Assembly: GCA_016794125.1 (NCBI GenBank)
Contig: JAEUKT010000003.1
Coordinates: forward strand, 1 to 64,000
Reading direction: 5' to 3'
Origin: Alphaproteobacteria bacterium
GTDB taxonomy: Bacteria > Pseudomonadota > Alphaproteobacteria > Micavibrionales > UBA2020
DNA length: 64,000 bases
The notes below the pieces were generated by a model. It ran no database searches, was not told the origin of the DNA, and saw only the letters and a list, made by a program, of their open reading frames with translations. The translations under genes and the position numbers were made by a program. Every line of letters starts with the position of its first letter. Within the stretch, counting starts at the first letter, position 1. Below are positions 1,864-19,386 of this stretch, one piece after another.

Positions 1864-3273
1864 TTACCTTTTCGCGTTGAACTTGATTGATGCCCGCGCC
1901 GAGGGCGCCGCCGTGGTCATGCGGATGGCGGCTGGCTTTACCGCGCTAATGCCGCCGCCCGATGGCGGGCGCAATCCGGTACGCACCAGCATTTCCCTGA
2001 CTTCCAGCACGTTCCGGCGCAGGTTAGGAACGGCTATTTTCGGGTCAATCGGAGGACGCTTCGACACTAGGCTTTCGTTCTCTGGTGACTTGAACACGCG
2101 GTCGAGCAGCTGGTCATTGTCGCGTTTTCTTACTACCGTCTGGAGGTAACTGGTCTCGTCAAGCTGCCGCTCAGGTGGCGGCGACATGACGAAGATGCTC
2201 CAGCGTGGCAGGCCATTAAGCGAATAACTCATATTGTTTATGAGCGACATAAACGAGTTGTTGGCTTCAATGCGCCGCGCTTCGGCTTCCTGTTTTATCT
2301 GGATTTCGGCATAGCGGCGCACCAGCTCGTTCAACTCGGCCTGCTTCGCCTGAACTTCCCTGCGTTCCTGCCGTTCCTCTTTCTCCTGCTTTTCCTTCTC
2401 TACGGCCTTCAGTTGTAGGGTTTCCATCGTCTTCTCGATTACGCGCCGGATGCGCGCGCGCATCTCGTCCGAAAGGCGGTTATCTTCAAGGGAGGCTTGA
2501 AGGGTCGACAAGTCGCCTGCCAGCAGTGCAATACGCGCTTCCGTTTGCGCCAGTTGAGCCGCCAGCGGCACTTTTTCGACCGCCGCAACGCTATCCGCTC
2601 TTGCGGCGGGCGGCTGCGGCGGCTCTGTTTGTGTGGCGACATAGCGGGCGATTTCCTGCCGCAGCCGCGCAACCTCTATCTTGTGTTCTTCCCGATAAAC
2701 GGTGACGGTTTTCTGCAAGTCCTGTCGCATCAGGAGCTGGCTGCGGATAAGGGAATGCAGCTCCTTCCGGTCGCGCTGAATCGCGGCCTTGGTTTCGGCC
2801 TCGTTGATTGCCCTGATTTTCTGGTATTCGCCTGTGACGCGCTGCCATACGCCCGCGACACCGGAGGCGAGGCGCGAGGAACGGGCTTTGGTTTCCTTCG
2901 TCCACCGCGCCTGCTGAACGGCGAGCAGATCGCGCCGCTCTGCGCGATGCTGCGCCGTCAGGGTGCGAATTTCCTGCACCAAGGGAAGCCGCCTTGCGGA
3001 GGCGGTATTCTTGGCCTCCGCAACGAACCTTTGCAGGTTCTCCGTCATGCGGGAGGCCAGGAATACTTTTGCCTGCTCTATCGCAGGCAGGTCTTCAGGC
3101 TTGCCAAGCCGCGCCTTCAGCTCCCTTGTGCCAAGGTCGAGCCATCTTGTCAGGGAGTAAATACCGCCCTTCACATCGAGGGCGACAAAGCCGCGCTTGT
3201 CGCCCCGCGCCAGCAGGAATCCGCGTTCCTGCAAGGCGGCGGCGAAAGTTTGTTTGCTACAATGATGGTTCAA
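1864..3273 (-). pseudogene. Relaxase C-terminal fragment, N-terminal nicking domain lost
   Basis: The 469-residue frame matches the C-terminal half of MobA/VirD2-type relaxases. It begins with SKQTFAAALQERGFLLARGD, a segment that in full-length relaxases follows the catalytic domain, then a long charged coiled-coil-like stretch (about 100-340) and a Pro/Arg-rich tail. The catalytic tyrosine and three-His nicking domain are absent. In the minus-strand frame a TGA stop lies at 3277-3279, and the only start is a TTG at 3273. Relaxase-like sequence stops near 3258, where helicase-like sequence of opposite orientation begins. This is best read as a gene truncated by insertion or recombination. A translated accessory fragment cannot be excluded. 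Confidence 0.75.
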
Positions 3274-4859
3274 AGTTCAGACTGGCGCTCAATACAGAAA
3301 AGCATTTTGCTGTAATTGTTGAGAAGGAAAATGAAACGGTCGACTGGGGAAATATTGCTGAACTCGAAAATACAAACTTCAACTGTTATTGTCTGTACCA
3401 TGATGTGGAGAACAATCTTATGTTTGTTTATGCTAGCGCTAAAGAATTGCCTGATAGCATAGTGCAGGCGGTGACAGATAATGCACAGCGTTTGGTAGAC
3501 CAAAAAATTTATAGATGCTTGCATGGCATAAACCGATTAATGATCACTAATTTCGGACTGAAACAAAGACTTGTTGGCCCGATTAGGTATCGTCAATATA
3601 TAGGATTGGATGTTGGGCAGGGCTTGAAGGATAGGATAACTGAAAATTCTTACGCAGCTATGTTGTTTGGAACGGGCTATGAGGATGCCGACCGGACCAG
3701 TGTGGGATGTTCTTTAAAAGGAAAAATTTGGTCACGTGATGGAGGGTCATTAGCGGAGTGGAGTGAATGGTGCAATCACGTAGGAACAAAGATTGTTAAT
3801 GCAGAGATCGATGTTGAGAAAATATTTGAAGGGGTGCTATTCCCTGAGCAGTTGAAAGTTCTGCCTACTGATAAAAATATAATTATGGCCGATTGGTCTG
3901 ACTATATATTCGAAAACATGTTTGAGAGAGTTTCAATTACGGTTGATAACGTCAAGCACACAACTGATGAGTGCGAAATAGTCTTTAAAAGCTCTACAGA
4001 TAAGAAAATAGTATTCGAATTGAGTTATCCTAGCGGTGCCGTTTCTTATGAATTGGAACTGACAACGGATGCACCAGAAGGATATAGGATCAAATCTGTA
4101 ACGAATGATATTGCAGTAGTGTCAGGTAAGGATTCTAGAAACGGCGCTGACTTTTTTACAATCAACCCGCCTATGTTTTGGTTTGAAGATGCGTCTGTAT
4201 TGGTGGAGGGATGCTTATACATCAAAGCTAGTAAACACCAATTAGCTGGTGTTTATGATGCAACGACAGCTTCTGTTTTTGATTGGTCATCAACAGATAT
4301 ACGTGTCGAAAGTCAAGGAGAGGATAAAAAACCAAATTCAATTCAGAGAGCTACAATTTTAGACTCAAAAAAGGATAGCCCGATATTGGTATTTGATGAT
4401 GATGGATCGGGTGAAATTGCCGACGTGGTCGCTGTCTATAATCATGATGCTGAATTGGTAGTGAGGCTTTACCATTGCAAATATTCGAAGCAAGGCACAG
4501 CTGGGTTGCGGCTAAATGATGTTTATGAAATTTGTGGACAAGCGCAAAAGTCTGTCAAATGGGCGGGTTCAGCAAAAGACCTTTCTGACAGAATTAGACG
4601 GCGCGAGAAGAAGCGCGTAGAAAATGGAAAGCCGACCCGTTTTGAGGTCGGGGGCATGAGTGAATTGAACACCTTCTTAATGATGTCAAAACAAAAGCTC
4701 GTGAAATTTGAAATTGTATTAGTTCATCCTGGCATATCTTATGCCCAGTTAAACGCGGGTAGCGAGTCCGCGAGGAATATACTACGAGTTTTGGCTTCAA
4801 CCGCATCTTATCTTTTAGAAACTTTTGAAATTAAAATGAAACTTGTTATTAATGAGTAG
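3261..4859 (+). pseudogene. C-terminal fragment of a helicase-type defence protein with nuclease-like tail
   Basis: The frame runs open from inside the antisense relaxase, but recognisable sequence begins near NDGSKFRLALN at 3261. It resembles the C-terminal half of large DEAD/DEAH helicase-family proteins found in defence islands; I recognise the family but not a named system. The tail has DDDGSGEIADVV (about 4394-4430), then VRLYHCKYSK and CGQAQKSVKWA. This acidic-then-xCK spacing is reminiscent of a PD-(D/E)xK nuclease fold. No Walker motifs are present because the front half is missing. Base composition looks AT-richer than the flanks. There is no start codon with a ribosome site near the junction. 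The first in-frame ATG is about 3420. Confidence 0.6.
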
Positions 4860-4893: not shown

Positions 4894-5184
4894 TCACTTA
4901 TGAGTTTTAAGCCACTCTTCCATGTCGGCAATTTCTTTCTTCTGCGCTGAAATAATTTTCTCAGCCATAGAACGCGCTTCCGCATCCTTGCCGTCTTTCA
5001 GCTGCTTCTCCGCCATGTCGAGTGCCATTTTGTGGTGGGGGATCATGTTGCGGATAAAATCCGCATCCTGATTTCCGGTCTTTACCATCGGCATACATTC
5101 TTTATGCGTCATCTCTGCGGCCTGTGCGGCTGCGCCATTGATAAGAAAGGCGAGGGCGGCAGCGGCGATAAAAGCGTGCTTCAT
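4894..5184 (-). CDS. Periplasmic DUF305 protein
   Basis: DUF305 proteins are small ferritin-like helical proteins, often near copper and silver resistance genes. A signal peptide (MKHAFIAAAALAFLINGAAA) is followed by the conserved core DADFIRNMIPHHKMALDMA, where the His pair and Met residues are likely metal ligands. I chose the ATG at 5184 over the ATG at 5205 because AAAGGAG sits just upstream of it and the signal peptide starts there. It is transcribed away from the metal operon that starts at 5333, with an inverted repeat between the two. A second DUF305 protein, membrane-anchored, lies at 12283. Confidence 0.88.
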   Translation of the reverse strand: MKHAFIAAAALAFLINGAAAQAAEMTHKECMPMVKTGNQDADFIRNMIPHHKMALDMAEKQLKDGKDAEARSMAEKIISAQKKEIADMEEWLKTHK

Positions 5185-5221
5185 GGTTGTTCTCCTTTTA
5201 TTCATAATCCGAACGAGGAAA

Positions 5222-5332: not shown

Positions 5333-5701
5333 ATGAAAGTGGGAATCGTAAAATTCCTGGCCGTTGTTCTAGCCCTTGGGTTCATGTTCGTCATGCCCAA
5401 GACGGCAGAGGCTCATCCCGCGAAGTTCCACGCATCCACCCAAGAGAAAAGCGCACCTGCTGCGGTGAAGACTGAAATTTCCGCGCAGGCTGTTGCCGTC
5501 CTATCCGGCTCGAATGAAGACGATGGCTGTGAAGGCGGCTGCTGCACGATGACGGCGGCCTGCTGCTCGCCTGCCGCGCTGATGCAGCACCAGTTCGAGC
5601 TTGTTCCTGTTCAAGCCGCCTTCGATTTTGTTTACAATACGGAAGTTATGCCGCAAGGCCCGCCTTACACGCTGTTGCGCCCCCCGAAATTCTCCGCCTG
5701 A
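5333..5701 (+). CDS. Cys-rich secreted protein ahead of the first RND system
   Basis: Encodes 122 residues: a signal peptide (MKVGIVKFLAVVLALGFMFV through TAEA, cleavage near AEA-HP), a Cys cluster (GCEGGCCTMTAACC, about 64-77), and a C-terminus ending LLRPPKFSA. No named family is certain. The layout is like DUF2946-type small secreted proteins near metal pumps. The protein at 12952 has the same plan. A role in periplasmic metal capture is inferred. The start is fixed by the signal peptide. The ribosome site is poor, because GAGG ends only two bases before the ATG. Confidence 0.7.
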   Translation: MKVGIVKFLAVVLALGFMFVMPKTAEAHPAKFHASTQEKSAPAAVKTEISAQAVAVLSGSNEDDGCEGGCCTMTAACCSPAALMQHQFELVPVQAAFDFVYNTEVMPQGPPYTLLRPPKFSA

Positions 5702-5787
5702 CATTGCCAGTGACCGTATTCGCTATTGGGGATAATTGTGTCCTCGTGGCTACGGCATGAACAATCGCTCATGTGGAGTTTATTCCA

Positions 5788-6750
5788 ATGCTCACGATAC
5801 GCCCGTATTCTATCTGCGCCGCTATGGTGCTTGCCGCCCTTGTTATATCCGCGCCAGTTCAGGCGCATGAAGGACATGACGACACCGCCGCGCTCACCGG
5901 AGAGGCAGCGCCCGAAGGCGCACCGCTCACCCTTAGCTCCGAGACAATCGCCAATCTGGACGTAAAGACTGCCACGGCGGCAATGAAGCCATTGCCGGAT
6001 ACATTATCCATGCCGGCCACTGTTTCTCTCCTGCCGGAACGGCAAGCGCAGGTTACGACCCGCTTTGACGGACGAATACAGGAAATCAAGGTCAAGATCG
6101 GGCAGGACGTTCAAAAAGGACAAGAGCTGATAATCGTCGAGCCTGTGCAAATCGGCACGAATGTCATCACATACAGGTCACCCATGACAGGGCGCGTGAT
6201 GCAGCAGAATGTCGTAGCAGGGCAGGCTGTGACATTCCAGACCTCTCTCATTGACTTGGCCGATATTAGCCAAGTGTTGCTCAAGGGCGCGGTCTACGAA
6301 ACTCCCGACCTTGCACGGTTGAAGGTAGGCCAGACAGTCACGGCGAATGTCGGCATTTATCCCAACCAGACTTTTGTAGGCAAAATAGAGAAGATAGACG
6401 CGGGGCCAGCGGCAGACAGCCGCGCACTCCATGTTTACGCCTTGTTCGATAACGCGGCGGGGCTGTTGAAGCCAAACCTGCGCGGGACGATGGTTGTTAC
6501 CCTCAATGACAAGGACGATAAACCAACCGTTGTCATTCCGCTTGCAGCCGTACTTGAAAATAACGGCGTGTCCTTTGTCTTTGTGAAGGAAGGCCAGACA
6601 TTCGAGCGGCGGGAAGTGCAGCTCGGAAGCAAGACCAGTTCGGAAGTCGAGGTTATCAGCGGCGTATTGCCTGACGAGGAAGTGGTGACGCAGGGAAATT
6701 ACCAGCTTCAGTATTTGAAGCCGACACCTGCGAAACCGAAGGAGCATTAA
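5788..6750 (+). CDS. HME-RND efflux periplasmic adaptor subunit
   Basis: CusB/CzcB-type membrane fusion protein that links the inner-membrane RND pump to an outer-membrane channel. It has a signal peptide (to VQAHEGHDD), a His-containing N-terminus, then barrel-sandwich and beta-barrel segments including FDGRIQEIKVKIGQDVQKGQ and YRSPMTGRVMQQNVVAGQ. At 320 residues it is on the short side for the family. I chose the ATG at 5788, nine bases after GGAG, over the upstream GTG at 5773. The gene is two bases from the pump gene. No outer-membrane factor is in this operon; the only one is encoded at 13355. Confidence 0.9.
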   Translation: MLTIRPYSICAAMVLAALVISAPVQAHEGHDDTAALTGEAAPEGAPLTLSSETIANLDVKTATAAMKPLPDTLSMPATVSLLPERQAQVTTRFDGRIQEIKVKIGQDVQKGQELIIVEPVQIGTNVITYRSPMTGRVMQQNVVAGQAVTFQTSLIDLADISQVLLKGAVYETPDLARLKVGQTVTANVGIYPNQTFVGKIEKIDAGPAADSRALHVYALFDNAAGLLKPNLRGTMVVTLNDKDDKPTVVIPLAAVLENNGVSFVFVKEGQTFERREVQLGSKTSSEVEVISGVLPDEEVVTQGNYQLQYLKPTPAKPKEH

Positions 6751-11051: not shown

Positions 11052-11089
11052 CCCGAAAAGTAGTCACCAGCAAATTTATGGAGCCAGCA

Positions 11090-11497
11090 ATGTTTAAGTC
11101 TGTATTATCTGTCCTCTCGGTTTTACTTTTGACAGCCTGCGCCGGACAGTCACGCCCGCCCGTTGAATCTCTTGTCACCGGAAAGGAATCAAGAGTGGAA
11201 AGAATTTCGGTTCTTGCCAAGGAATGTGAGCGGGAAGTGTTGTATGGACACCTTCAGCTCTGCCCGCCGCGCAATCTTTGTGCCAAAGATTTTAGGCATA
11301 AGGCAGCTACGCGTTCCGTCTGTCAAACCTTGGCCGTCGCTGTTTCCTCGGACAGTACTTCGGAGATTGGACAGGCACGGCAAGCATGTCTGGCAGAGGC
11401 GACGAGGGGAAAAGGGATTAATAATCCGGCCAGACGGGAACACGCACAACGCCAAACGGCTTTGTGTGAAGCACTCTACAACGAACGCAGAAAGTAA
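11090..11497 (+). CDS. Small lipoprotein, paralogue of the one at 18985
   Basis: Encodes 135 residues. A hydrophobic signal with lipobox LLTAC gives an acylated Cys, and several further Cys residues follow. The segment GKESRVERISVLAKECE and the C-terminal third align with GKSKQERVATLAAACE and the matching part of the lipoprotein at 18985. Both genes sit directly downstream of an RND system block. GGAG six bases before the ATG at 11090 favours this start over the ATG at 11078. The function is unknown. A periplasmic or outer-membrane accessory role is inferred. Confidence 0.7.
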   Translation: MFKSVLSVLSVLLLTACAGQSRPPVESLVTGKESRVERISVLAKECEREVLYGHLQLCPPRNLCAKDFRHKAATRSVCQTLAVAVSSDSTSEIGQARQACLAEATRGKGINNPARREHAQRQTALCEALYNERRK

Positions 11498-11503
11498 ATA
11501 GAC

Positions 11504-12202
11504 ATGACCTCAATTGAAATCCAAGGTATGACCTGCCAGAACTGCGTCAGGAAAATAACGGCTGCCTTTCAGGAAGCCGGAATAGCGGGGAAGGTAACGC
11601 TTGATCCGCCAGCGGTAACATTCGAAGGGAATGCCCCAGACCGCGCGGCATTAAGCGCCGCCTTGGCAAAGGCGGGTGACCATTACCACCTCAAGGAAGG
11701 CGCAGGGAGTTCACTCGAGCCCGCCGCAGAGCCGCATAAGAGCTGGCTGGAAATTTATTATCCGTTGCTCCTCATTTTCGGTTTTATCTCCGTGGTTTCA
11801 TTCAAGGGAGCCGATACCTGGCACGACTGGATGCTTCACTTCATGGCGGGCTTCTTCCTCGTATTCTCCTTTTTCAAGTTCTTGAGCCTGACCGGATTTA
11901 AAGACGCATATTCGACCTATGATCTGCTGGCAAAGAAATGGAACGGGTATGGCTATCTTTACCCGTTTCTGGAGCTGGGACTTGGCCTTGCCTTCCTCTT
12001 TGGCATCTATCTCCAGCAGGCTTTGTGGTTTTCGATTGTGCTGATGGGTTTCAGCAGCTTGGGGGTTATCAAGGCTCTTTCGGAGAAGAAGAAAATCCGC
12101 TGTGCCTGCCTCGGGACGGTATTGAACCTGCCTATGTCTACCCTGACGCTGGTTGAAGACCTTGGAATGGTGGCGATGTCCATTGCTATGCTGGCTTTCT
12201 AA
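11504..12202 (+). CDS. HMA domain fused to MauE/DoxX-like membrane protein
   Basis: Encodes 232 residues. An N-terminal heavy-metal-associated domain (GMTCQNC, about 8-14) is joined through a linker to four or five membrane segments of the MauE/DoxX redox-associated type. CACLG (about 205-209) is a Cys pair typical of that family. Such proteins are thought to handle metal or thiol redox chemistry at the membrane, but the exact reaction is not established. It lies six bases after the lipoprotein gene, so the two are probably co-transcribed. Confidence 0.78.
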   Translation: MTSIEIQGMTCQNCVRKITAAFQEAGIAGKVTLDPPAVTFEGNAPDRAALSAALAKAGDHYHLKEGAGSSLEPAAEPHKSWLEIYYPLLLIFGFISVVSFKGADTWHDWMLHFMAGFFLVFSFFKFLSLTGFKDAYSTYDLLAKKWNGYGYLYPFLELGLGLAFLFGIYLQQALWFSIVLMGFSSLGVIKALSEKKKIRCACLGTVLNLPMSTLTLVEDLGMVAMSIAMLAF

Positions 12203-12215
12203 ATAGGAATCTAAC

Positions 12216-12282
12216 CCTCCTGAACCAAATAGGCGGATTATTCGTTAGCCTCTTTGGTAGAAATCTGTATCAGGAGGCTTCC
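12216..12282 (+). promoter_or_regulatory. Structured leader that hides the ribosome site of the next gene
   Basis: CCTCCTGA (12216-12223) is perfectly complementary to TCAGGAGG (12270-12277), which contains the Shine-Dalgarno sequence of the gene at 12283. Inside it, CCAAATAGGC (12225-12234) pairs with GCCTCTTTGG (12248-12257) at nine of ten positions, leaving a 13-nt loop. A 12-nt strand (12258-12269) forms an internal bulge. There is no T-run, so it is not a terminator. The layout is that of a translational switch. The signal, whether metal, temperature or a protein, is unknown. Confidence 0.55.
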
Positions 12283-12768
12283 ATGAAATCCGGTATGGCA
12301 CATCACGGGCATGAGCAGCACGACCACAGCCCATACGGGCAGTTGGGTGTTATGGCGTTGGCATCGTTTGTCGCCATGTATGTCCTTATGTACGCGATGG
12401 TGGATTCAACCGAGAACGTCTATCCGAATTTTAACCAGTTCTATATGGCTTCTCTGATGACCGCGCCAATGGTCATAATAGAACTGCTTGTGATGCAGGG
12501 CATGTATAAGAACAAAAAGCTCAATGCCGCAATACTGGCTGGTAGCGCGGTAGTAGCCACTCTTGCGTTCTTCTTTATCCAGCAACAGACGCTTATTACG
12601 GACGAGCAGTTTTTAAAGTCGATGATACCGCACCATGCGGCGGCTGTTCTGATGTGCGAAAAGGCACCGATCAAGGATGCCGAAATAAAGCAGCTCTGTG
12701 ACAACATCCTCTCCAGCCAGCAGGCCGAAATTAAGCAGATGAAGAAGAAGTTGAATGACATAAAGTAG
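12283..12768 (+). CDS. Membrane-anchored DUF305 protein
   Basis: Encodes 161 residues. A His-rich N-terminus (MAHHGHEQHDH) precedes three predicted membrane segments (about 20-40, 53-70, 80-98). A DUF305 core follows with FLKSMIPHHAAAVLMCEKA, where the His pair and Met/Cys residues are likely metal ligands. The AGGAGG ribosome site is strong but buried in the preceding hairpin. It is the second DUF305 protein of the island. The role in metal tolerance is inferred from family and neighbours. Confidence 0.85.
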   Translation: MKSGMAHHGHEQHDHSPYGQLGVMALASFVAMYVLMYAMVDSTENVYPNFNQFYMASLMTAPMVIIELLVMQGMYKNKKLNAAILAGSAVVATLAFFFIQQQTLITDEQFLKSMIPHHAAAVLMCEKAPIKDAEIKQLCDNILSSQQAEIKQMKKKLNDIK

Positions 12769-12951
12769 ATGGGGTTCTATAAAATGTCTTCAAAACTTAC
12801 ATAATCTCTTACAAAATCCAAGAAAGCCTGACGAATTATCACTTTAATTCAATCGGTTGAGTTCCTTGCGCTGACTTCAAGTTTTGCCTTCGTCACCGAA
12901 TAAATTAAATTTGATTTGTGAAATTTCGCCAACCTATGCAATGCTGCGCTT

Positions 12952-13263
12952 ATGAGACTGCTGCTTATCATCGCCCTGATCGTCGCTTCTTTATCCTTCA
13001 CTGGCTCAGTGAAGGCGGCGGATTTTTGCGCGGATCATGACTGCCAGCAGGAGATGAGCGTCGCGCAAGATGACGCGCCAAGCCAAGCGCCCGATGTACC
13101 TTGCAACGATTGCTGCCTGCATCATTGCGGGCATATGGTTTTCTCCGGCAAAGTCCAGAACGTACAATTGCCGTTGGTTCTAACCAAATATAGCCGCGTC
13201 GAGCCGCCTTCATTGCAAGGCCGCGAACCCGCAGGCCTTTTCCGTCCTCCCCAAAACGCTTAA
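12952..13263 (+). CDS. Cys/His-rich secreted protein ahead of the second RND system
   Basis: Encodes 103 residues: a signal peptide (to SVKAADFC), then CNDCCLHHCGHM (about 51-62), a Cys/His cluster suited to metal binding, and a C-terminus ending GLFRPPQNA. The plan and ending match the protein at 5333, which also precedes an RND operon. The family is uncertain, perhaps DUF2946-like. The 180 bases before it (12769-12951) are AT-rich and hold no gene that I can see. Confidence 0.7.
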   Translation: MRLLLIIALIVASLSFTGSVKAADFCADHDCQQEMSVAQDDAPSQAPDVPCNDCCLHHCGHMVFSGKVQNVQLPLVLTKYSRVEPPSLQGREPAGLFRPPQNA

Positions 13264-13354
13264 CTTCCCAAGTCCTTGAAATAGTCTAGGCGTATCACGC
13301 CATGACTCCGTTTCAAGGCTCGTTTTTTGTTGGGTCAAGTTATGTGGTATCACT

Positions 13355-14614
13355 ATGCGTTATCAATCATTGTTCCTGTATGCGGGGTTAATCCTGTTCC
13401 TTGCAGCGCCCGCTTACGCGGAAGTCACCAAGGGAATAACCCTTGAGGAAGCCACCAGCCAAGCCTTGCGGTTTTCCCCAAAACTGAAATCGGGCGTTGA
13501 AGCCGTGGGCGCAAGCAAGGGCGACCGCCGACAAAGCTCCCTTGCGCCAAACCCCGAACTGGCGTTCGAGGCCGAAAATATGCTCGGCACCGGAACCAAA
13601 AGCGGGTTCAAGGAGGCCGAGTTTACGCTAGGCATTGCCCAGCCCGTCGAAATGGGCGGCAAGCGTGGGGCGCGGGTAAAGGCAGCCACCCACCAGCTTA
13701 GTATCGCCCAGCTGGATTTGCAGTCAGTCGCGCTCGATGTCGTGCGCGATACGACTGCAGCCTGGGCGGAAGTTATCGGAACCGCCGAGGAGGCAAAACT
13801 GGCGGAGGAGCAAAGGAAGCTGGCGGGCGATGTGCTGGCAAGCGTCAGGAAGCGCGTGGAAGCCGCCGCCGAGCCAGCCATCCAAAAGAGCAAGGCCGAG
13901 GTGGAAGTCGCCAGCACCAAAATCGCGGTGCAGAAGGCGGAGCGGGCGCATCTCGCCGCACTTCAGCATTTTGCGCAGGTGATCGGACTTGATGACCTCC
14001 GGCCTGCCGTTTCGACTGAAGGCTTCTTCGACCTGCAACAGCTGGATACAACCGCCACGCTGGAACAGAACCCCGATTTCAAGAAACTGGAGGCGGGAAT
14101 ACAACTGGCAAGCGCTAATCTCGCGCTTGAGAAGACGAACGCGGTTCCCGATGTAACGTTTGAAGTTGGTGTCAGGAACTCCCGCGATACGGATGACCAG
14201 TCTTTCCTCGCGGGCGTATCCGTACCGTTTCCGGTATTCAACCGGAACCAAGGCGCGATTATGCGGGCAGGGCATGAAGTGACGAAGGCCAATCATGACA
14301 AGGTGGCAAGCGTCAACGACATGCAGATTGCTCTCGTGCGGGCGCAGAACAATCTTGAAACGACTTATGCCGAGGCCGCTAGCCTTAAAAAATCCGTCCT
14401 GTCGTCGGCTGAAAAAGCCTTCCGGCAAGCGCGGGAAGGCTATCAAGCGGGCAAGTTCAGCTATCTCGAAGTGCTGGACGCGCAGCGGACATTGTTCGAC
14501 GTAAAGGCGCAGCGTATCGCCGCGCTGAAAGAATATCACGCCGCCAAAGCCGAATATGAACGGCTGACGGCGAAACATATCGGGCTGATCGAAGTCCAAG
14601 GAGAAAAGAAATGA
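13355..14614 (+). CDS. czcC: TolC-family outer-membrane factor of the metal efflux system
   Basis: CzcC/CusC-like channel protein of 419 residues, a normal length. It has a signal peptide (to PAYAEVTKG) and two repeats of long helices with beta hairpins. LEEATSQALRFSPKLK near the start and FSYLEVLDAQRTLFDVKAQR near the end are typical outer-membrane efflux repeats. It is the only outer-membrane factor in the island, so both RND pumps may use it. It overlaps the next gene by ATGA. The symbol is by family resemblance and does not imply a proven substrate. Confidence 0.9.
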   Translation: MRYQSLFLYAGLILFLAAPAYAEVTKGITLEEATSQALRFSPKLKSGVEAVGASKGDRRQSSLAPNPELAFEAENMLGTGTKSGFKEAEFTLGIAQPVEMGGKRGARVKAATHQLSIAQLDLQSVALDVVRDTTAAWAEVIGTAEEAKLAEEQRKLAGDVLASVRKRVEAAAEPAIQKSKAEVEVASTKIAVQKAERAHLAALQHFAQVIGLDDLRPAVSTEGFFDLQQLDTTATLEQNPDFKKLEAGIQLASANLALEKTNAVPDVTFEVGVRNSRDTDDQSFLAGVSVPFPVFNRNQGAIMRAGHEVTKANHDKVASVNDMQIALVRAQNNLETTYAEAASLKKSVLSSAEKAFRQAREGYQAGKFSYLEVLDAQRTLFDVKAQRIAALKEYHAAKAEYERLTAKHIGLIEVQGEKK

Positions 14615-18984: not shown

Positions 18985-19386
18985 ATGAAGAAGATATTCC
19001 CGATATTACTTTTATCCTTGGCCTTGTCGGCTTGCGCCGCAGAGCCGCAAGCAACTATCCACCAGCAGCTTGCCGGAAAGAGCAAGCAGGAGAGGGTGGC
19101 AACGCTTGCCGCCGCCTGTGAGCAGGAATTTGGCAAGAGCCATGTGACGAGAGATAACAGTGTAAGATACGGGAAAACCCGTTACAGACCCCACACTAAG
19201 GAAACGAAAGCCGTCTGTGGTGCTATGACACAGGCCGCAAGCGGTTCGAGAGGCGTTTCGGCAGACCAGCTTTTGAACCAATGCTTGAACGAACAAGTTA
19301 TTGGCGGCAGGCTTAACAAGAACCGCAATAAAGCGCATATTGAGCGGATAAACAACATTTGCCGCGCCTTCCGCGCTGAAATGTAA
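18985..19386 (+). CDS. Small lipoprotein, paralogue of the one at 11090
   Basis: Encodes 133 residues with lipobox ALSAC. The mature part has spaced Cys residues and aligns with the lipoprotein at 11090, including GKSKQERVATLAAACE and a C-terminal Cys-containing helix. The ribosome site AGGA lies in the loop of a small 5-bp hairpin (TCTTC-AGGA-GAAGA). It sits between czcA and the P-type ATPase gene and is probably in the same operon. The function is unknown. Confidence 0.7.
   Translation: MKKIFPILLLSLALSACAAEPQATIHQQLAGKSKQERVATLAAACEQEFGKSHVTRDNSVRYGKTRYRPHTKETKAVCGAMTQAASGSRGVSADQLLNQCLNEQVIGGRLNKNRNKAHIERINNICRAFRAEM

Follow-up and report, generated by a model that had tools for sequence, protein, structure and literature searches.

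Background

In the copper operon cutF-cutO of Rhodobacter capsulatus, an intergenic stem-loop covers the Shine-Dalgarno (SD) sequence of the downstream gene, and the copper-dependent translation of CutF, a small Cu-binding protein that is exported and has a proline-rich end, is needed to open this loop (PMC9973294). Post-transcriptional control of a copper operon has also been described for CruR, a DUF2946 copper leader ORF that acts via Rho-dependent termination (PMC9426467). Here we analysed the leader of a DUF305 gene in a stretch of DNA of 64,000 nucleotides (the window), which the original prediction had presented as a translational switch in a metal-resistance block, possibly sensing metal, temperature or a protein. 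Like cutF-cutO, this locus (Table 1) has an SD-shielding intergenic stem-loop in a copper operon; the ORF preceding it is, however, a 232-aa HMA-MauE membrane protein without a proline-rich end. The CutF layout is matched by two other leader ORFs of the block, ORF1 and ORF2, and not by the hairpin under study. These two ORFs also share with CruR the layout of an upstream ORF in a copper operon, and the C-terminal RAPP of CruR resembles their RPP, whereas no such ORF precedes the hairpin.

The genes between 5773 and 12768 all lie on the forward strand with short gaps, the one before the DUF305 gene being of 80 nt, and this arrangement makes it probable that an RND-type (copper-type) metal operon ends with the DUF305 gene. 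Its product has 161 aa and matches the CopM metallochaperone model of NCBIfam at 46 bits, which is a sub-threshold score, under the cut-off of 90.

Table 1. Genes, leader ORFs and structural parts of the DUF305 leader, in positions of the window
Feature	Position	Strand	Basis
CutF-like leader ORF1, before a CusB-like gene; separate from the hairpin	5333-5701	+	length, PP, neighbour, pairing
Upstream gene HMA-MauE: N-terminal HMA domain and MauE-like membrane part	11504-12202	+	Pfam
Outer helix P0, 5' arm: last codons of HMA-MauE	12184-12199	+	folding; other junctions equally strong
Outer helix of fold A (P2), 5' arm CCTCCTGA	12216-12223	+	sequence, folding
Inner stem P3, 5' arm (9/10 pairs)	12225-12234	+	folding
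Rival local hairpin B (AGCCUCUUUGGUA/UAUCAGGAGGCU), SD also buried	12247-12279	+	folding
Inner stem, 3' arm; doubles as 5' part of hairpin B	12248-12257	+	folding
3' arm TCAGGAGG, includes SD AGGAGG (12272-12277)	12270-12277	+	sequence, folding
DUF305 gene: membrane protein, C-terminal DUF305 (CopM-like) domain	12283-12768	+	Pfam DUF305, 9.6e-12
Outer helix P0, 3' arm: first codons of the DUF305 gene	12285-12300	+	folding
CutF-like leader ORF2, before a TolC-like gene; separate from the hairpin	12952-13263	+	length, PP, neighbour, profile, pairing

Predicted structure of the leader

The hairpin is confirmed in the sequence, and its parts lie where the original prediction had placed them. All eight pairs of the outer helix between CCTCCTGA and TCAGGAGG are perfect, the inner stem CCAAAtAGGC/GCCTcTTTGG forms nine of its ten pairs, and the SD AGGAGG ends 5 nt upstream of the ATG at 12283. 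The whole hairpin has about 18 bp, with its 5' arm beginning 14 nt past the HMA-MauE stop codon. The T-run is absent, as had also been pointed out, and terminator calling gives no terminator here, so that an intrinsic terminator was rejected.

Folding of 12216-12277 yielded a minimum free energy (MFE) of -23.9 kcal/mol (z = -4.2), equalled in none of 200 shuffles. In the longer stretch 12205-12300, the one that the original prediction had singled out for thermodynamic folding, the SD is again buried, but the z value is merely -1.5 and the centroid differs from the MFE structure, being hairpin B, in which the SD pairs with the 3' half of the inner stem. Hairpin B (-13.6 kcal/mol) competes with fold A for the same SD; the two are mutually exclusive and both bury it. 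Their balance depends on the stretch folded and ranges from all A to all B across 42 fold contexts (choices of ends), fold A becoming dominant once the stretch begins at 12160 and includes the upstream coding end, because of an additional outer helix (P0) between the end of HMA-MauE and the start of the DUF305 gene that appears in this wide fold. The stretch 12183-12300 reaches -43.3 kcal/mol with z = -5.1, its boundaries having been picked after the fold was seen. Throughout the 42 contexts the unpaired probability of the SD is at most 0.6%, so that the ribosome site is predicted to be thermodynamically closed whichever of these ends is chosen. As A and B are each an "off" state, no built-in on-state is visible.

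Chance expectation and comparison with other genes

We compared the leader with 82 genes of its own genome that have an SD, taken from the window and eight 20-kb stretches by crude gene calls in which some starts are probably wrong. With an unpaired probability of 0.5%, the SD of the DUF305 gene is the least accessible in this set, and its opening cost of about 10.2-10.5 kcal/mol ranks second; using a wider window together with a wider SD region the rank drops to 9th, and for the whole ribosome binding site (RBS) it is 6th. When the boundaries are optimised for each gene, the best z value of the leader is third among the 82. The first, second and third of these ranks, and the fact that the same site is buried by two separate helices, argue against a chance origin, in which a strong SD met complementary upstream bases and no function was selected, the gene being poorly translated or helped by active ribosomes. 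On the other side, helices of 8 bp or more form on this SD in 1.3% of upstream shuffles in which the SD is held fixed, the opening energy is equally high in 49 of 2000 such shuffles (2.5%), an 8-bp SD helix is present in 3 of the 82 nearby genes, and the leader is nowhere conserved (see below). From the shuffle frequencies and the ranks among the 82 genes, the leader is unusual per gene, with roughly one such case expected by chance per 64-kb window.

The helix between the two coding regions is not special either, since 3 of 47 other gene junctions (4 of 48 including its own) pair at least as strongly and the DUF305 RBS pairs equally well with eight other gene ends; the idea that the HMA-MauE end pairs specifically with this RBS was rejected. 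Of the 82 starts, the one with the strongest local fold lies elsewhere, at 3002-3086 (z = -6.8; inverted repeat TGGCCTCC/GGAGGCCA), close to where an ORF of unknown family (2994-4859) begins.

Effect of upstream translation

In ordinary translational coupling in operons, the downstream RBS is closed in ribosome-free mRNA and is partly opened by upstream ribosomes. Placing a modelled ribosome on the HMA-MauE stop codon (12200) lowered the opening cost of the whole RBS from 21.6 to 16.0 kcal/mol, and that of the SD itself went from 10.5 to about 12.5 kcal/mol. Because the modelled ribosome breaks the outer helix while the SD helix stays shut at this cost, we tentatively favour a fixed translational damper with partial coupling, to which we give a probability of about 0.42. 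Helices A and B would each pair the SD of the last gene and keep its RBS closed, and the outer helix with the upstream gene end would raise the opening cost further. On a message presumably shared by the two genes, ribosomes reaching the end of HMA-MauE would disrupt the outer helix, making DUF305 translation partly dependent on that of the upstream gene, the SD helix itself remaining shut. The outcome would be a low, operon-linked synthesis of the DUF305 protein that requires no ligand. As in ordinary coupling, upstream ribosomes would partly open a closed RBS; here, however, the footprint of the terminating ribosome does not extend to the SD helix, and coupling would therefore be incomplete. 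We consider chance nearly as likely as this damper. If functional, the hairpin would fix how much of a single copper-handling protein is made in its operon, a role that is nothing unusual.

Conservation of the leader

The leader is single-copy in its own genome, and a repeat or mobile element was rejected on this ground. Searches of 385 genomes of the class and of plasmid and phage collections returned short chance matches only and no homologous leader; the viral contigs held no relatives of it, and the plasmids matched only in DUF305-coding sequence (71-76% identity). The nearest relative with a DUF305 gene, a genome of the same genus (G002), encodes a protein 64-66% identical to that of the window, and its gene lies 10 nt after a short DUF305 gene (both at L003 1492-2317, minus strand) without this leader. 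In the window, a short DUF305 gene is found at 4894-5205 on the minus strand, at the opposite end of the first operon from the membrane DUF305 gene.

The original prediction had proposed looking for the same structure upstream of other DUF305 genes. Comparable occlusion is absent from 33 homologous leaders, which resemble the background: over the 34 DUF305 leaders with a recognisable SD, including the one studied here, the median SD opening is 3.1 kcal/mol (3.0 for the genomic background), and this leader stands alone at 10.5 kcal/mol, the next-highest being 7.4. By these sequence comparisons the hairpin is lineage-specific, its fold being found in one species only.

The sequence after the HMA-MauE gene also differs in G002 and in a further genome, G006, where the hairpin is not conserved. 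This bears on the idea of a hairpin that shields the upstream operon message at its 3' end or serves as an RNase cleavage site, the closing of the SD being incidental. Although a hairpin of about 18 bp placed shortly past a stop codon and ahead of the last gene would suit such an element of mRNA processing or stability, its absence behind the MauE gene of both relatives makes this quite improbable.

Tests for sensing

ROSE and FourU thermometers are imperfect helices that melt near growth temperature. They share with the DUF305 leader an SD paired within a leader hairpin, but the SD helix here is perfectly Watson-Crick paired and predicted to be stable to 60 C: exposure of the SD is estimated at 0.2% at 20 C and 2% at 60 C, where 98% of it remains paired. 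As so little of the SD is exposed even at 60 C, the suggestion of a temperature-sensing leader did not hold; an RNA thermometer was rejected and seems to us scarcely credible. Nor did the covariance models of Rfam, with NiCo, yybP-ykoY, ROSE and FourU among the families, give any relevant match to the leader, and a known metal riboswitch was likewise rejected. Of the proposed translational switch, the burying of the SD stood in all fold contexts, while its sensing part found no support in a leader without counterparts in relatives, without melting, without an Rfam match and with both folds "off".

A regulated switch could still be imagined that responds to metal stress in the way CutF acts on cutO, the ribosome site being opened by a metal, a small RNA, an RNA-binding protein or the stalling of ribosomes on HMA-MauE. 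The setting in a copper-type operon would agree with it, as would the near-isoenergetic folds A and B and the known CutF-type stem-loops that cover the SD in copper operons (PMC9973294), two of which lie in this same block. The criteria for CutF-like proteins are fewer than 150 aa, export and PP in the last 15 residues (PMC9973294), whereas HMA-MauE lacks the short exported form and the proline-rich end, having 232 aa and ending in LVEDLGMVAMSIAMLAF. Moreover, a ribosome modelled at the end of this ORF does not free the SD, as the opening costs given above show, and the leader has no similarity above that of shuffles to the CutF-like leaders of the block, so that a relic of these was also rejected. 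Together with the missing Rfam match and the two closed folds, these results make a regulated switch unlikely. A more specific version, in which HMA-MauE acts as a full-size membrane-metallochaperone sensor ORF whose metal-bound nascent HMA domain would slow ribosomes, break the outer helix and shift the balance between A and B, is a long shot. As a switch the hairpin is unproven, and we read it as a species-specific damper of DUF305 translation, or as chance.

Two other identities of the leader were considered and rejected. An integron attC site was discarded by eye, the paired core sites being missing. The gap contains no leader-peptide ORF with a start codon and an SD, and the frame through CCTCCT (Pro-Pro) is open only downstream of a stop at 12204 and lacks a start codon.

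CutF-like leader ORFs of the metal block

The statement that the block has no visible regulator genes proved misleading, since each of its two operons is headed by a CutF-like leader ORF. ORF1 encodes 122 aa with Cys clusters and ends in QGPPYTLLRPPKFSA (GPPYTLLRPPKFSA before the stop), its RPP lying 4 residues from the end; ORF2 encodes 103 aa, also with Cys clusters, and ends in FRPPQNA before the stop, with RPP 3 residues from the end. Both have the length, PP and neighbour of CutF-like proteins (PMC9973294), an N-terminal hydrophobic stretch, judged by eye, that is a putative Sec signal, and, by prediction, a stem-loop over the following gene's SD or start. Neither has a Pfam match to DUF2946.

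In both cases the following gene's RBS is paired with the last codons and stop of the ORF, within 5333-5800 for ORF1 and 12952-13370 for ORF2. For ORF1, the end CUCCGC..UGA is paired with the SD region UCA..GUGGAG of the CusB-like gene. A modelled ribosome on the ORF end lowers the RBS opening cost from 18.3 to 11.8 kcal/mol for ORF1 and from 8.4 to 4.9 kcal/mol for ORF2. Relatives of ORF1 are found in G002 only, where there are two and the pairing is kept with different bases, and the ORF2 profile matches 29 of 142 genomes of the order. Across 22 leaders, the duplex between the upstream ORF end and its cognate RBS averages -12.4 kcal/mol against -8.2 kcal/mol for swapped pairs, with none of 20,000 permutations as good, a count that overstates the independence of the leaders because related rows have common ancestry; for the G006 row the wrong downstream start was used, and the true G006 RBS does pair. 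Examples of co-varying helices are AUAGCUUAAGUU/ACUUAAGCUAU against AUAGCUUAGGUU/ACCUAAGCUAU, AAGCUUAAAUC/GAUUUAAGCUU and AAAGCAUAGUUA/UAACUAUGCUUU. Pairing of this kind is seen in about half of the leaders examined, the others being without it given the start sites chosen.

By analogy with the described systems, ORF1 and ORF2 look like the real copper switches of the block, of an already known kind. They are a better lead than the DUF305 hairpin, which we regard as ordinary to mildly interesting, and finding them at the head of a seemingly regulator-less metal block is the more useful outcome of this analysis. The co-variation of their end-to-RBS pairing across the order would extend a recently described mode of copper sensing, for which the CutF-like leaders of the order offer a ready test set.

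Composition of the metal block

The block looks assembled from separate modules. Another genome of the same genus (G004, L108 1446-2993) also carries the next operon, with 92.7% identity starting at 12897, and has neither the DUF305 gene with its leader nor the first operon. Beside the block, at 35-853, an antirestriction gene of the ArdC type that includes a zincin-like metallopeptidase domain suggests a mobile element. Each operon also carries a small lipoprotein-like ORF (11078-11497 and 18985-19386); the two are similar and of unknown family.
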